A stretch of DNA of 5,519 bases from Candidatus Fermentibacterota bacterium (lineage in GTDB: Bacteria > JAFGKV01), in assembly GCA_030620115.1 (NCBI GenBank), contig JAUXFG010000217.1, positions 1-5,519 of the forward strand, read 5' to 3'. Shown in pieces: positions 1-5,476 of the stretch (position 1 is its first letter; the number at the start of each line of letters is the position of its first letter). The notes below the pieces were generated by a model. It did not search any database, was not told where the DNA came from, and worked only from the letters and a program-made list of their open reading frames with translations. The translations under genes and the position numbers were made by a program.

Positions 1-1467
1 CTCACGACCCCCCGAGCACTCCCGCAGGGTATCACTCAGTCGGTCGCGGTGGCCGTCTTCTTTCTTGCCGCGGCATTCGGATTGCACGTGACGCGCAGGA
101 TCGTGATGCTCGGTGCGCCACGCACGGAATCAAAGGCGGCGGCTCTCCTGGGCCTCTGGCTTCTGAATACCCAGTGGGTTTCCATCTGGGCCTCCGTGGC
201 CTTGCTCCTTCTCCACATCAAGCTTTTCCAAGCAGCATTCTGGATGACACAGATCCTCTCCTACTGGATTCTTGCCCTCGCTCTGGAACTTCTTGTCAAG
301 GTTCTGATAACCCTCTTTAGATCGTCTGAACGATACGAGCAGCTGACGCCTGATCTCTTGCTCTTGGAAGCTGTGTTCCAAGGAAAGAACCCCTTTTCGC
401 GGCTCGCCGCCGATATCAGAGAGGAATATGGGATCGACCTTGGGACATCGAAGATCGGACCGTTTTTTCGAAGAGGGCTGCCGGCGTTGCTCGCCCTCTT
501 GGCGCTCTCTCTATGGGCACTGAGCGCGCTGGTGATAGTGAAGCCGCATGAGCTCGGGATCAGAGAACGGCTCGGCAAGAGCATTCGCCCAGCGCTTCAA
601 CCAGGCCTTCATGTGAAACTGCCCTGGCCACTGGAGAGAGTCCTCACCTTTCCGGCCAAACGACTCCTCTCAATGACCATCGGCTACGAAGCATTCGGCC
701 AAGCCCAAGACATGATCTGGTCCAAACCACATGGCCGGAAGGAGTATCGCTTTCCCGTGGGGAATGCCAGTGAGATCATCTCCGTGGATGCGGTGCTCTT
801 CTACGAGATCAGCGATGTGTTTGCCTACGCATACCATACACAGAACCCTGACACCGCCCTGGCGGCATTGGCCTATAATACCCTTTATGCACGTATCGCC
901 TCCACCTCCTTCGATGAGCTTGTGTCGGTGGATCGTTCCACTCTTTCTGACGAGCTCACCGGAGTCTTGAACAAAAGAGCAGCCGCAGAGAGCCTTGGTT
1001 TGTTTGTCGTTCACATGTCGTTCCTCTCCATTCACCCCCCCTTCGTAGTCGCGGATGCGTACCAGGGGGTGGTGGGCAGCCATCTTGCGAAGGAAGCCCG
1101 GATCTTGCGCGCATATGCGTACCGCGAGAGAGTCCTTCCCGCGGCCTGGGCCCAAGCAGAATCACTCATTTCCACCGCACGAGCAGACTCGGCCCTCCGT
1201 GTGGGAACGGCCAGGGGAGAGTCGGAAGCTTTCATAGTGCGCGCAGAGGCCCGGAAAGCGGTGAAAAAGCTTCGCGATCAAGATCTCAGGCTGGGCATGC
1301 TGCAGGATATCCTGGAAGGGAAAGAATTCGTGGTCCTTGATCGCCGCGTCTCCACCAAAGCGTTCCAGCCCTGGATCGACCTGCGTCAAACCCAAAACAA
1401 GGCTACCCCCGAGGAGACAATCCCTGACCTAGCAAACCCATGGGACGGAGAAGGAGCCCACAAATGA
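1..1467 (+). CDS. HflK-like SPFH/band-7 protein with polytopic membrane N-terminus (5' partial)
   Basis: Membrane scaffold protein of the stomatin/prohibitin/flotillin/HflKC (SPFH) superfamily, probably a subunit of a hetero-oligomeric membrane ring. The frame has no stop from base 1. The first start codon is GTG at 49, with no ribosome binding site, and the codons before it read into a hydrophobic helix, so the gene very likely begins upstream. Residues counted from GTG 49: hydrophobic segments at about 1-15, 32-56, 62-90 and 143-165; a charged, probably cytoplasmic stretch at 91-142; SPFH domain from about 166 (PHELGIRERLGK, then PGLHVKLPWPLERV) to about 340; Ala/Arg/Glu-rich helix at 345-410. 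YRERVLPAAWAQAESLI (358-374) matches the HflK signature before the C-terminal coiled coil. The tail after 445 is polar. E. coli HflK has one membrane segment, so the extra N-terminal segments are the oddity. The HflK-type assignment is firm at family level; its function is inferred. An alternative internal start, ATG 106 with AGGA at 97-100, would cut off a membrane helix and is less likely. Confidence 0.85.
   Translation, partial: LTTPRALPQGITQSVAVAVFFLAAAFGLHVTRRIVMLGAPRTESKAAALLGLWLLNTQWVSIWASVALLLLHIKLFQAAFWMTQILSYWILALALELLVKVLITLFRSSERYEQLTPDLLLLEAVFQGKNPFSRLAADIREEYGIDLGTSKIGPFFRRGLPALLALLALSLWALSALVIVKPHELGIRERLGKSIRPALQPGLHVKLPWPLERVLTFPAKRLLSMTIGYEAFGQAQDMIWSKPHGRKEYRFPVGNASEIISVDAVLFYEISDVFAYAYHTQNPDTALAALAYNTLYARIASTSFDELVSVDRSTLSDELTGVLNKRAAAESLGLFVVHMSFLSIHPPFVVADAYQGVVGSHLAKEARILRAYAYRERVLPAAWAQAESLISTARADSALRVGTARGESEAFIVRAEARKAVKKLRDQDLRLGMLQDILEGKEFVVLDRRVSTKAFQPWIDLRQTQNKATPEETIPDLANPWDGEGAHK
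1451..1456 (+). promoter_or_regulatory. Ribosome binding site AAGGAG deciding the HflC start
   Basis: AAGGAG lies 7 nt before the ATG at 1464 and inside the end of the preceding gene. A second GGAG sits at 1447-1450. This spacing favours ATG 1464 over the in-frame ATG at 1440, which would add eight residues, three of them consecutive arginines, ahead of the membrane anchor. ATG 1464 also gives the ATGA stop/start overlap typical of coupled genes. Confidence 0.8.
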
Positions 1468-2357
1468 AACACGGCATCATCCGCTGGTTGGTCACCATTG
1501 TGGTGGTGGGTCTTGTGCTACTCAAGGCCGCCAGCTTTACGATACGAGAAGGCGAATTCGCCGTGGTCACAAGGTTTGGAAAGCCATGCCGGGTCATTCG
1601 AAATGCCGGGCTTCACCCGCGATGGCCTTGGCCTGTGGAAACGGCCAACAAAATCGACGCCAGAAGGCGTGTCTATACCACCCGCTTTGCGGAGACCCTG
1701 ACCAGGGATAAGAAGAACGTCATTCTGGTGAACTTCGCCGTCTGGTCGGTGGAGGATCCCCTCCGATTCCTCCAGGCAGTGGGATCCGCCCAGGAAGCAG
1801 AATCCAAGCTCGATGGCATGATATCCAATGCCAAGAATGCCGTCATGGGCGGCTATAATCTCACGGCCCTGGTTTCCACCGTGGCAGAGAGCCTAAAGGT
1901 CGAAGAGATAGAAGCCGCTATCTTGGAGGAGATCAAGGATCAGGCACGCACAAGTCTCGGCCTTACACTCTGGCACGTAGGCATCAAACGCATGGCGCTG
2001 CCTGAAGAGAATGTCCGCTACGTCTTCGACCAGATGAGGGCCGAACGAGCCCAGTTTGCCGCCAGAGCAATCGCGGAAGGCCGACGACAAGCCGCCGCTG
2101 TTCGTGCGCAGACAGAGGTAGAAAAGGCCGCCATAGTAGCGCACGCACAGGAGGAAGCGGCACTCATCAAAGGACAGGCGGAGGCCGAGGCCGCGGGCCT
2201 CTACGCCAAAGCCCAACGCACAGATCCCTCCTTCTTCGAATTCCTTCGATCGATAGAGGCGTTACAAAAACTCCTGGGGGAGAAGACCACGGTGATCATG
2301 CGGACCGACAGTGATCCATTCCGCCTATTGGAGGAGGAGCCGACCTCGCGGCGCTAG
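1464..2357 (+). CDS. hflC: HflC-like SPFH protein (protease modulator HflC family)
   Basis: Homologue of HflC, which in E. coli pairs with HflK in an inner-membrane complex that encloses and modulates the protease FtsH, with the large domain on the periplasmic side. The 297-residue protein has one N-terminal membrane anchor (about 5-23), then FTIREGEFAVVTRFGK (25-40), the N-terminal SPFH strand region. WPWPVET and DARRRVYTTRF (54-75), followed by TRDKKNVILVNFAVW, match the HflC region reading LDAR..., then TKEKKDLIVDSYIKW. GIKRMALPEENVRYVFDQMRAERAQ (starting at 173) corresponds to the HflC segment RIKQINLPTEV followed by YNRMRAERE. A long Ala/Glu/Arg coiled coil spans about 190-250. The C-terminal TDPSFFEFLRSIEAL (253-267) and DSDPFRLL (282-289) mirror HflC TKDP-type and DSDFFRYM motifs. 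It is shorter than E. coli HflC (334 aa), mainly in the SPFH middle. It overlaps the preceding gene by 4 bp and sits 2 bp before the next. The family call is strong; the partner protein here is inferred. Confidence 0.92.
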   Translation: MKHGIIRWLVTIVVVGLVLLKAASFTIREGEFAVVTRFGKPCRVIRNAGLHPRWPWPVETANKIDARRRVYTTRFAETLTRDKKNVILVNFAVWSVEDPLRFLQAVGSAQEAESKLDGMISNAKNAVMGGYNLTALVSTVAESLKVEEIEAAILEEIKDQARTSLGLTLWHVGIKRMALPEENVRYVFDQMRAERAQFAARAIAEGRRQAAAVRAQTEVEKAAIVAHAQEEAALIKGQAEAEAAGLYAKAQRTDPSFFEFLRSIEALQKLLGEKTTVIMRTDSDPFRLLEEEPTSRR

Positions 2358-2359
2358 TC

Positions 2360-3436
2360 ATGGAAACCAGGGATCTTCGCGCCCTCGTCATATCGTCTCT
2401 TGCCCAAGGCCTCCGGCTGCTCCAGGGGCTCATCATTGCGGGCGTTCTCGTCATGCTCGGTTCGGGCATCAAAACGGTCAAACCCAACGAGGTGGCACTG
2501 GTGCTCCGGTTGGGTCGCCTCACGGGGGCGACCCACGCCCAGCGGGTCCACGGCCCAGGTCTGCTCTTTGCATTCCCCTACCCCATCGATGAGATCGTTC
2601 GGGTTCCGGTCCGCCAAGTCAAGGAGATTATCATCGATGAACTCTGGTATCCCACGGGTGGTGGCATTGGTTTTCCTGCCACCCCCTTGGACGAAGAAGA
2701 TCTGGGATTCGATGAGGTCGAACAAACCACAGGATTGCCCCTGGCCCTTATGGGCGTATCCATCGATCCAGTCCGCGAGGGTTACTGCCTCACTGGTGAT
2801 AACTATATCATCCAGCCCCTGGCAGTAGTGAAGTATCAGATAGGCGACCCCGTTGAATATGCCCTCAATGTGAGCTCGCCTGAGGAGCTTCTAAGAACGG
2901 TCTTGGTGGAACAACTCACCCGTGCAATGGGTGAGTCAACTGTGGATGACGTGCTCACACGTGGGAAGAGGGCTCTTTCCCTCAGAGTAAAACGGAGGTC
3001 CCAGGCGCGACTCGACAGCCTTCGATCAGGTCTCGAGATCCTCGCGGTGGAATTCAAGGAGATCATTCCTCCCCGGCATGTGCTCCAGGACTTCCAGCGG
3101 GTTGTCAGCGCTGCAATCCAGAGCCAGACCATGATACGCGAGGCACAGGCATACCGGGCACGAGAGCTGCCCAAGGCTCGAGGTCAGGCCAGGAGTCTCA
3201 TTCTCACGGCGCGAGCCGACAGCCTGAGAAGAACCGCCGAGGCAAGCGTGAGGATGACCTCATACCTCAACTACCTGCCCGAGTATCAGCAATCGCCAGA
3301 CGCCCTAAAAGCACGGCTGCTCAAGGAGACACTGGAGCAGGGACTGGCACGGATCCAGCATCTCTACCTCCTCCCCGGCCAGGGACGGGACCCAGGGCCC
3401 GCACTCAGGCTCCTTCTTCCGGGGAAACGCCAGTGA
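2360..3436 (+). CDS. hflK: HflK-like SPFH protein (protease modulator HflK family)
   Basis: Homologue of HflK, the partner of HflC in the membrane-anchored SPFH complex. The 358-residue protein has a short basic N-terminus, one membrane anchor (about 19-37), then VKPNEVALVLRLGRL (40-54) and GPGLLFAFPYPIDEIVRV (65-82). LTGDNYIIQPLAVVKYQIGD (144-163) is the HflK motif equivalent to LTSDENVVRVEMNVQYRVTD. VSSPEELLRTVL (171-182) matches the VTSPDDSLRQA element. PPRHVLQDFQRVVSAAIQS, REAQAYRARELPKARGQA (260-277) and YLPEYQQSPDALKARLLKET (305-324) follow HflK step by step to the C-terminus. An insertion at about 95-141, with an acidic run DEEDLGFDEVE, is longer than in E. coli HflK. The glycine/proline-rich N-terminus of E. 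coli HflK is missing. The start ATG 2360 has no good ribosome binding site (GGAGGAG is about 20 nt away), so translation probably depends on coupling to the HflC stop two bases upstream. Confidence 0.9.
   Translation: METRDLRALVISSLAQGLRLLQGLIIAGVLVMLGSGIKTVKPNEVALVLRLGRLTGATHAQRVHGPGLLFAFPYPIDEIVRVPVRQVKEIIIDELWYPTGGGIGFPATPLDEEDLGFDEVEQTTGLPLALMGVSIDPVREGYCLTGDNYIIQPLAVVKYQIGDPVEYALNVSSPEELLRTVLVEQLTRAMGESTVDDVLTRGKRALSLRVKRRSQARLDSLRSGLEILAVEFKEIIPPRHVLQDFQRVVSAAIQSQTMIREAQAYRARELPKARGQARSLILTARADSLRRTAEASVRMTSYLNYLPEYQQSPDALKARLLKETLEQGLARIQHLYLLPGQGRDPGPALRLLLPGKRQ
3421..3436 (+). promoter_or_regulatory. Weak ribosome binding site and GTGA stop/start overlap before the ATPase
   Basis: GGGGA at 3421-3425 lies 7 nt before the GTG at 3433. 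That GTG overlaps the TGA stop (3434-3436) of the HflK-like gene. The weak site plus the 4-bp overlap points to coupled translation of the pump with its upstream SPFH gene. No in-frame ATG lies before the first membrane segment, which supports the GTG start. Confidence 0.65.
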
Positions 3437-5322
3437 AGAAACAAACAGTTACTCTCTCCGCTACCAGGGCACTTCTGGAGAACGTGAATATCCGGTTGAA
3501 CCTGGCATTTCTGGGCGCAGGGCTCCTGCTCATCGCACGGATCTATCGGGCCTTGGCGCCAAGCCAGGCTGACGTGGCGCCCATTGCCGAGGCGATTGCC
3601 GCCCTCCTCGTGGCCACACCTGTCTTCTACCTTGCCATCAAAGGGCTTTTCGCCGGAGGGAAGCTTTATGTGGCCGAGCAACTGGTTTCTCTGGCCGTTC
3701 TCGCAGCCATAGCCCAGGGAGAATTTACTGCAGCAACACTGGTTCCCCTCTTCCTCTTGCTTGGCCACGTGGTGGAAGAGCGAAGTATCCTTGGAGCACG
3801 CCGCGCCATCTCGAGGCTTGCGAGTCTCACATCCACGAGAGCCACCCTTGTTGAGGATGACGTCACACGGGAGGTGGAAGCCGAGGCCCTAAGACCAGGC
3901 GATCTTGTACTGGTGAAGCCAGGTGATACGTTTCCAGCCGATGGCACAGTATCGCTCGGCTTCTCAGCGGTGGATCAATCCCCTGTCACGGGAGAATCGA
4001 TCCCGCAAGACGTCGGCCCGGGCGATGAGGTATTTGCCTGCACTATCAATATGAGCGGCGCACTGAAGGTGAAGATCACCAAGGTGGGAAATGATACGGC
4101 GCTGGGCAGAGTCGTGGCCCTGCTGGAGGAGGCATCACTGTCGAAACCTCCGGTAGTTCAGATGATGCAGAAGTACGCGTCACTCTATCTTCCCACAGTA
4201 CTGAGCCTCGCACTTGGCGTTTTTCTCCTCACCCGTACTCTGGACCGCGCCATATCGGTGCTGGTCATAAGCTGCCCCTGTGCATTCGTGCTTGCTGGTC
4301 CCGCGGCTATCGTCGCCGCCCTTGCCGTTGCCTCGCGCCACGGCATCCTCATCAAGGGAGCACGATTTCTGGAGCGTATGGCTGAAGTGAACTCACTCAT
4401 TTTGGACAAAACCGGTACCGCAACCCTGGGACGACTCGTGGTGACCGGGCTTGCCCCATCCGAGCATGTCACCGCACAGGAACTTCTGCATGCCGCTGCC
4501 ACAGGATCCACTAACTCGCGCCACCCAGTGGCCAAGGCAATCTCTGCTGCCGCGTCCCAGCGGGGAATAGAGCCGGCGACAATCATCAGCTCCACCGAGT
4601 TTCCTGGTCTTGGCACCGAGGCAATAACGGCTGACTGCCTTATCCGGTTGGGCCGACGCACGTGGCTGGAGAGCCTTGGAATGACCATAATGTCTACTGC
4701 CTCTGTCGATCACGATGGCTCGGTGACATGGGTCGCACAGGAAGAGCATGTGCTCGGCGCTATTATGCTTTCCGATCAAGCCCGACCGGAGGCAGCCTTG
4801 GCATTGCGTGATCTGAGGAACATGGGGATAGATCGTGTATCCATGGTAACGGGCGATAGAAAACAGGTTGCTGAACCTCTGGCACACTCCCTGGGCATTG
4901 ATGCTGTACGCTGGGAGCTCCTCCCCGAGGACAAGCTGGAGGCAGTGAGGGAAGAGCGGGACAAGGGATACACGGTAATGGTGGTTGGAGACGGCGTGAA
5001 TGACGCCCTGGCCTTGGCCGCAGGCGATGTGGGAGTGGCCATGGGGGCGGCCGGTGTTCAGGTGGCAATCGAGAGCGCGGACGTTGCCCTGATGCATAAC
5101 AACCTTCGTGCGCTGCCCACTGCCGTCGAGCTTTCCAGAAAGACACGATCGACTATCAATATGAACGTGCTCTTGGGAGGAGGATACAGCGTGCTGATGC
5201 TGACCCTCGCCGCATTGGGCATCATCAATCCGATCAGTGCCGCGCTCCTGCATAACCTCGGTTCGCTCTTTGTCATTATCAACAGCTCTCGCCTCCTTCG
5301 TTTTGATAGCCCGCATCTGTGA
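3433..5322 (+). CDS. P1B-type heavy-metal-class P-type ATPase without N-terminal metal-binding domain
   Basis: ATP-driven cation pump of the inner membrane, 629 residues. Eight hydrophobic segments fit the P1B layout: about 22-40, 49-70, 83-97, 98-112, 247-267, 272-298, 577-597 and 600-617. The actuator domain (about 120-235) carries PVTGES (184-189). The sixth segment holds the ion-binding CPC motif (281-283, in SCPCAFVL). The phosphorylation motif is DKTGT with Asp325. The nucleotide domain has the P1B-specific His-Pro pair (H364-P365, in SRHPVAKAI). TGD (473-475) and GDGVND (519-524) complete the catalytic set, so the enzyme looks active. There is no N-terminal CxxC metal-binding domain and no His- or Cys-rich tail. 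The usual Leu after DKTGT is Ala (DKTGTAT), and the last membrane segment reads LLHNLGSLFVIINSSRLL, unlike the Asp-x-Gly of Zn/Cd pumps or the Met-Ser-Ser of Cu pumps. The ion is therefore unassigned, though a transition-metal substrate is likely. It is the last gene of the SPFH operon. Confidence 0.93.
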   Translation: MKKQTVTLSATRALLENVNIRLNLAFLGAGLLLIARIYRALAPSQADVAPIAEAIAALLVATPVFYLAIKGLFAGGKLYVAEQLVSLAVLAAIAQGEFTAATLVPLFLLLGHVVEERSILGARRAISRLASLTSTRATLVEDDVTREVEAEALRPGDLVLVKPGDTFPADGTVSLGFSAVDQSPVTGESIPQDVGPGDEVFACTINMSGALKVKITKVGNDTALGRVVALLEEASLSKPPVVQMMQKYASLYLPTVLSLALGVFLLTRTLDRAISVLVISCPCAFVLAGPAAIVAALAVASRHGILIKGARFLERMAEVNSLILDKTGTATLGRLVVTGLAPSEHVTAQELLHAAATGSTNSRHPVAKAISAAASQRGIEPATIISSTEFPGLGTEAITADCLIRLGRRTWLESLGMTIMSTASVDHDGSVTWVAQEEHVLGAIMLSDQARPEAALALRDLRNMGIDRVSMVTGDRKQVAEPLAHSLGIDAVRWELLPEDKLEAVREERDKGYTVMVVGDGVNDALALAAGDVGVAMGAAGVQVAIESADVALMHNNLRALPTAVELSRKTRSTINMNVLLGGGYSVLMLTLAALGIINPISAALLHNLGSLFVIINSSRLLRFDSPHL

Positions 5323-5376: not shown

Positions 5377-5476
5377 AGATTCTTCGCTCCTTGGAGTCGC
5401 TCAGAATGACAGTGGTAGTGTGCAGAAGTATGTGGACTACGTGTCATTCTGAGGAAGCGAAGCGACCGAAGAATCT
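5377..5476. repeat. Pair of 35-nt inverted repeats, dispersed-repeat type
   Basis: The left arm 5377-5411 starts AGATTCTTCG and ends CTCAGAATGACA. The right arm 5442-5476 starts TGTCATTCTGAG and ends CGAAGAATCT. Arms are equal in length; the inner 12 and outer 10 bases pair perfectly, while the 13 bases between mostly do not (about 4 matches). A 30-nt spacer separates them. The right arm contains GAAGC twice in tandem. From memory, CATTCTGAG...GAAGAATCT elements recur in intergenic regions of many environmental bacterial genomes. An RNA of this region could fold into a long stem with an internal bulge, which may protect the 3' end of the operon mRNA. Confidence 0.75.

Follow-up and report, generated by a model that had tools for sequence, protein, structure and literature searches.

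A four-gene operon of three SPFH proteins and a metal pump

We analyzed a 5,519-nucleotide contig of a Candidatus Fermentibacterota bacterium (assembly GCA_030620115.1, contig JAUXFG010000217.1; hereafter the window), which carries three SPFH genes followed by a gene for a P1B-type heavy-metal ATPase. This is a conserved four-gene operon of the kind found at the hmtA locus of Pseudomonas aeruginosa (PA2439-PA2435). All four genes lie on the plus strand, namely ORF1 for a large, HflK-like SPFH subunit (1-1467), hflC (1464-2357), hflK (2360-3436) and the ATPase gene (3433-5322). They are joined by an ATGA overlap between ORF1 and hflC, a 2-bp gap between hflC and hflK and a GTGA overlap between hflK and the ATPase gene. 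Gene calls and domain searches confirmed the layout proposed in the initial annotation; the first gene starts on a second contig (C27). The window is the complete contig and ORF1 is open at its upstream side; ORF1 is therefore truncated at the 5' end. The last 117 bp of C27 are identical to positions 1-117 of the window, and its open frame, holding the first approximately 94 codons, continues in frame into ORF1. Joined across the two contigs, the large subunit measures approximately 582 amino acids (570-650 in its orthologues) and begins with a multi-transmembrane domain, which gives it six additional predicted membrane helices compared with the HflK of the Escherichia coli type.

In searches against Pfam and NCBIfam, each of the three SPFH proteins matched Band_7, and the fourth protein was identified as a heavy-metal P-type ATPase. 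In the large subunit, the remainder of the N-terminal membrane domain (1 to approximately 450) is followed by the SPFH domain (residues 179-373; 535-1119), which contains a W-x3-H motif (W240 and H244 in window numbering; 718-732) kept both in operons with a P1B pump, hereafter the pump type, and in operons of the CDF type described below. The HflC protein scored above the cut-off of TIGR01932, while the hflK product (156.9 bits compared to 159.4) and the ORF1 product (92 bits) fell below the HflK cut-off. The pump has no N-terminal metal-binding domain and is of the P1B type according to its E1-E2 ATPase and HAD domains, its DKTGT phosphorylation motif (D325; 4405-4419) and its CPx membrane motif, which is CPC in the window (C281-P282-C283; 4273-4281). 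CPx is a hallmark metal site of P1B ATPases. Among the operon pumps this motif is unusually variable, with CPC, CPG, CPT, CPS, CPV, CPL and VPC all represented.

The window pump is the sole full P1B ATPase found in the host genome. The ftsH gene is located on contig C1 and does not adjoin the operon. A classical hflK-hflC pair is apparently split between the end of contig C15 and the start of contig C161, with no sequence overlap joining them, so the SPFH genes of the window are not the only hflKC of this genome, a point that the initial annotation had set out to be checked. When HflC copies were counted in 26 genomes with a trio of SPFH genes or a fusion (see below), most had more than one, and three (G230, G259 and G275) had only the trio copy at the threshold used. 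Three genomes of the host phylum were compared, and the two others carry a different form of the trio.

Conservation of the operon and a separate HflC lineage

The order large SPFH subunit, HflC, HflK and P1B ATPase is found in approximately 100 loci from several phyla, and also on conjugative plasmids. The initial annotation had suggested that similar clusters occur in other environmental bacteria, and rightly so: these are loci of the hmtA type, kept far beyond a single lineage, and the four-gene order is not due to chance. Whole-genome searches led by the ATPase recovered the order in G259, G275, G230, G338 and G253, and, distributed over more than one contig, in G116 and G380, all of them outside the phylum of the window. 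In the phylum of G275, it was present in 15 out of 20 fetched loci. A scan of named genomes returned all four genes in 79 of 80 loci (Burkholderia, Paraburkholderia, Trinickia and Pseudomonas), a census biased by the HflC alignment used as query, which reaches Burkholderiales and Pseudomonas. In six of these 79 loci the last two starts are listed in reverse, solely because the ATPase frame opens early. Plasmid records with the same order came from Burkholderia ubonensis and Klebsiella aerogenes (both conjugative), Rhizobium tumorigenes and Paraburkholderia sprentiae.

Two variants of the locus were also observed. In one pump-type group, an ABC ATPase, an ABC-2 permease and a further protein are encoded downstream of the pump (L107, 9975-13926; L108, 9068-12910; L109, 2973-6817), and this last protein had no Pfam match in the one case tested. 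On a plasmid of Aquibium oceanicum (L180, 5361-14050), genes for a large HflK, HflC and HflK come with one for a PpiC-type isomerase and one for a P1B ATPase from a different lineage, and PCu(A)C and SCO genes lie adjacent. This copy was dropped from the pump type, as its HflC and its ATPase group elsewhere in the trees.

To place the window HflC, we built a tree of 58 proteins, composed of 38 trio members and 20 classical HflC, including the second copy of the host genome. A branch with 100/99 support separates all 38 trio proteins from the 20 classical ones, which leaves the window HflC outside the classical lineage. Pump-type operons form a clade (100/99), which joins eight CDF-type operons at 100/98. 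In a tree of 43 ATPases (P. aeruginosa HmtA not among them), the operon pumps form a clade separate from other P1B ATPases (100/100), which also includes three pumps from loci without confirmed order, and the window pump groups with operon pumps of Pseudomonas and Burkholderia (100/99). Compared with the HflK-HflC pair that E. coli uses with FtsH, the trio of the window has SPFH domains of the same HflK and HflC families, but three genes instead of two, an HflC of a separate lineage, a large subunit with the extra membrane helices and a metal pump instead of ftsH as its neighbor.

The closest known system is the hmtA locus, where three SPFH genes (PaFlo5-PaFlo6-PaFlo7) and the P1B ATPase HmtA likewise share one locus. 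PA2439, PA2438 and PA2437 correspond to PA14_33070, 33080 and 33110 (PMC9431628), which are the PaFlo5-7 operon of another study, in the text of which the word ATPase does not appear (PMC13086221). Papers on P. aeruginosa present these proteins as FtsH modulators or as flotillin-like, with no partner named. Other Pseudomonas species have the same gene order as the window, and their pumps group with its own; P. aeruginosa, unlike the window, lists an extra gene, PA2436, between PA2437 and PA2435. A 2009 survey of prokaryotic SPFH subfamilies makes no mention of ATPase, cation or metal (PMC2636767), and we found no paper in the open-access literature tying trio and pump functionally. A literature search on ferrosome pumps, which we had also considered, returned nothing.

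Transporter fusions and the N-terminal domain of the large subunit

In several relatives of the operon, a metal transporter and the SPFH domain are parts of one protein. A CDF domain fused to an SPFH domain is encoded by the first trio gene in G001, G002, G026, G037 and further genomes, as detected by Pfam (Cation_efflux and Band_7) in the six proteins tested and by our own CDF profile in the remainder. In G366, G087, G209, G068 and G316 the same gene encodes an ArsP_1 permease fused to Band_7, with a similar protein in G100; the G366 fusion scores above the cut-off that NCBIfam sets for the SO_0444 Cu/Zn efflux family. In G267 it encodes a single protein of 1040 amino acids that joins a P1B ATPase to Band_7; this pump branches outside the operon-pump clade and was therefore recruited independently. 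HflC and HflK genes lie downstream of most fusions; the fusion occurs without them in G093 and in the fetched stretch of G366. CDF, SO_0444-type and P1B proteins are all tied to heavy metals, mostly zinc and copper. G275 has the pump plus a separate ArsP_1 permease gene that overlaps the trio. Two ArsP_1-SPFH fusion loci (L170, 4991-5899; L171, 12763-13677) have an extra HflC-type gene nearby, giving four SPFH genes in total.

No paper describing these fusions was found in the open-access literature. They point to rings that bacteria would assemble specifically for metal transporters. For the window, a cage or microdomain dedicated to a P1B ATPase was originally proposed. Of this proposal, the dedicated link to a metal transporter has good support, because the gene order extends well past a single lineage and because relatives fuse a transporter covalently to the SPFH subunit.

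The N-terminal domain of the window large subunit had no Pfam match when searched alone. A profile of this domain from pump-type operons matched the CDF domain of the fusions (269 columns, 97.7%, E = 1.9e-12), also after removal of the part proximal to the SPFH domain (193 columns, 95.8%, E = 7.9e-9). Reversed and block-shuffled controls reached at most 1.6%. We also considered a relationship to ArsP_1 permeases and rejected it, as no signal was detectable (0.4-0.5%). A mixed profile, built on alignments that include CDF fusions, retrieved YiiP/FieF in a search of solved structures (E = 4e-5). AlphaFold2 models of the G259 orthologue, built on such alignments as well and of moderate confidence (mean pLDDT of 70 and 77), have six helices that match YiiP (Z 18.9, 199 residues, root-mean-square deviation 2.9). 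The model of the N-terminal part alone gave Z 16.6, and both values exceed a helical-bundle background of about 12. The SPFH part matched solved HflK/HflC structures. On the basis of profiles and models, the N-terminal domain of the large subunit is predicted to have the membrane fold of CDF zinc transporters, which are found as full domains in the sister fusions.

The pump type differs from YiiP/FieF in that an SPFH domain follows and in its metal site. The HxxxD metal pairs of transmembrane helices 2 and 5 are present in both helices of 13 fusions, one of which has N for D in the second, and are absent in seven out of seven pump-type large subunits, that of the window included. In the simplest history, an originally fused CDF transporter would have become inactive and a P1B pump would have assumed its role. 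These results also modify the original description of the trio as two HflK-type proteins plus one HflC: there are indeed three SPFH genes, but the large subunit is not a plain second HflK and is rather a CDF-derived, transporter-like SPFH protein.

Zinc and copper, and a proposed dedicated SPFH ring

The substrate of the operon is most likely Zn(II) and/or Cu. His-rich N-termini occur in the HflC of the Pseudomonas, Burkholderia, Paraburkholderia and Rhizobium copies, and also in some pumps. The Paraburkholderia copy lies near zinc ABC transporter genes (znuABC) and a PCu(A)C gene. At up to 3 mismatches, 26 Pseudomonas loci and one Trinickia locus have a Zur-like box in their upstream region, where about one was expected, although these loci are closely related and not independent; upstream of five plasmid copies, nothing above chance was found. 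A znuA mutant of P. aeruginosa shows induction of PA2434-PA2439 (PMC4542158). In this species, the PA2439 promoter is bound by Zur in a zinc-dependent manner (PMC8531726), and HmtA (PA2435) is reported to import zinc and copper (PMC8456098). In the Pseudomonas relatives, the operon probably has a role in acquisition under zinc starvation.

The genes divergent from ORF1 on C27 encode a TonB protein, an ABC substrate-binding-like protein and a TonB-dependent receptor (L060, 6500-10798), and are compatible with metal uptake, though unspecific. At the other end of the window, positions 5443-5476 hold a 34-bp dispersed repeat, GTCATTCTGAGGAAGCGAAGCGACCGAAGAATCT, with 182 copies in the genome at up to 3 mismatches (none for the reversed control). 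This repeat likely caused the contig break.

We consider it rather probable that the operon encodes a dedicated ring or cage of the HflKC type together with the metal transporter that it serves. This reading is supported by the conserved linkage, the separate HflC lineage, the clade of operon pumps, the covalent fusions, the degenerate CDF domain and the signs of a metal role described above. The three SPFH proteins would assemble like HflK and HflC, with their SPFH domains on the periplasmic side, a placement taken from E. coli HflK/HflC. The degenerate CDF domain may serve to dock the P1B pump and hold it in place within the ring, which would enclose the outer face of the pump and so control metal exchange or pump activity. 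That transport proteins can be housed within an SPFH ring is known from structures of stomatin with aquaporin-1 (AQP1) and with UT-B from erythrocytes (PMC12407830). We use this as a working analogy; the stomatin ring is eukaryotic and involves no genetic fusion, and the likeness to the trio would be one of function. More tentatively, the operon may represent a general class of bacterial SPFH cages dedicated to transporters. Such cages would consist of an HflC/HflK pair and a large subunit that carries or once carried a transporter, with CDF, SO_0444-type and P1B proteins swapped for one another; in the hmtA type, a dead CDF domain would remain as the place where a separate P1B pump sits, and transport by this pump, which may be inward, would rely on the space that the ring encloses.

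Other explanations assign different parts to the ring and the pump. A ring around the periplasmic face of an exporter could hold the released metal or pass it on to a partner, in which case the import reported for HmtA would be indirect. CDF, SO_0444-type and P1B proteins are normally exporters, so that three exporter families are fused to one and the same subunit, and import by HmtA needs confirmation according to a review (PMC10393844). We nevertheless regard export as somewhat unlikely, given that the P. aeruginosa locus is induced by zinc starvation (PMC4542158) and bound by Zur (PMC8531726) and that znuABC lies beside the Paraburkholderia copy. It is unlikely that the trio is a specialized adaptor bringing FtsH to the pump for degradation when the metal status changes, which would make the pump a substrate and not a resident of the ring. 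HflK and HflC are known modulators of FtsH, PA2437-PA2439 are described likewise (PMC9431628), and the host genome has ftsH; however, this gene does not adjoin the operon, a separate classical hflKC is present and the trio HflC is of a distinct lineage. A transporter fused to the ring subunit, as seen in sister lineages, would also be odd for a substrate. The copies on conjugative plasmids, the patchy distribution in Pseudomonas (PMC13086221) and the few related pumps without adjacent SPFH genes would all fit a shared mobile metal operon and nothing else, with SPFH proteins that organize the membrane generally and a pump that is a passenger without physical association. This seems very improbable to us, as transporter families are covalently fused to the same SPFH subunit and the CDF-derived domain is retained in the pump type.

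Some observations weigh against a dedicated ring. The large subunits of Burkholderia and Pseudomonas, unlike that of the window, have no CDF-like profile match, and a few related pumps (L279 and L280) have no adjacent SPFH genes. The region upstream of the window operon yielded no Zur box, in contrast to the Zur binding and zinc-starvation induction known for the hmtA locus, although the consensus is proteobacterial and may not apply in the host phylum. We do not treat regulation as deciding which gene family the operon belongs to. In P. aeruginosa, added zinc did not repress hmtA mRNA (PMC8531726), and deletion of all three trio genes produced little phenotype in the published assays (PMC13086221). 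The correspondence with P. aeruginosa is based on the literature and on other Pseudomonas loci.

The hmtA locus itself was already known; the transporter fusions, the trio HflC lineage apart from the classical one and the CDF-like domain without HxxxD pairs in the pump type are new here. SPFH neighbors as partners of HmtA were not found considered in the open-access literature, and a dedicated ring may bear on the unconfirmed import direction of this pump. Three metal transporter families fused to one ring subunit offer a direct genetic handle on the guests that bacterial SPFH rings may have besides FtsH, with ring and guest both defined and with growth at low zinc or copper as a phenotype that can be tested.

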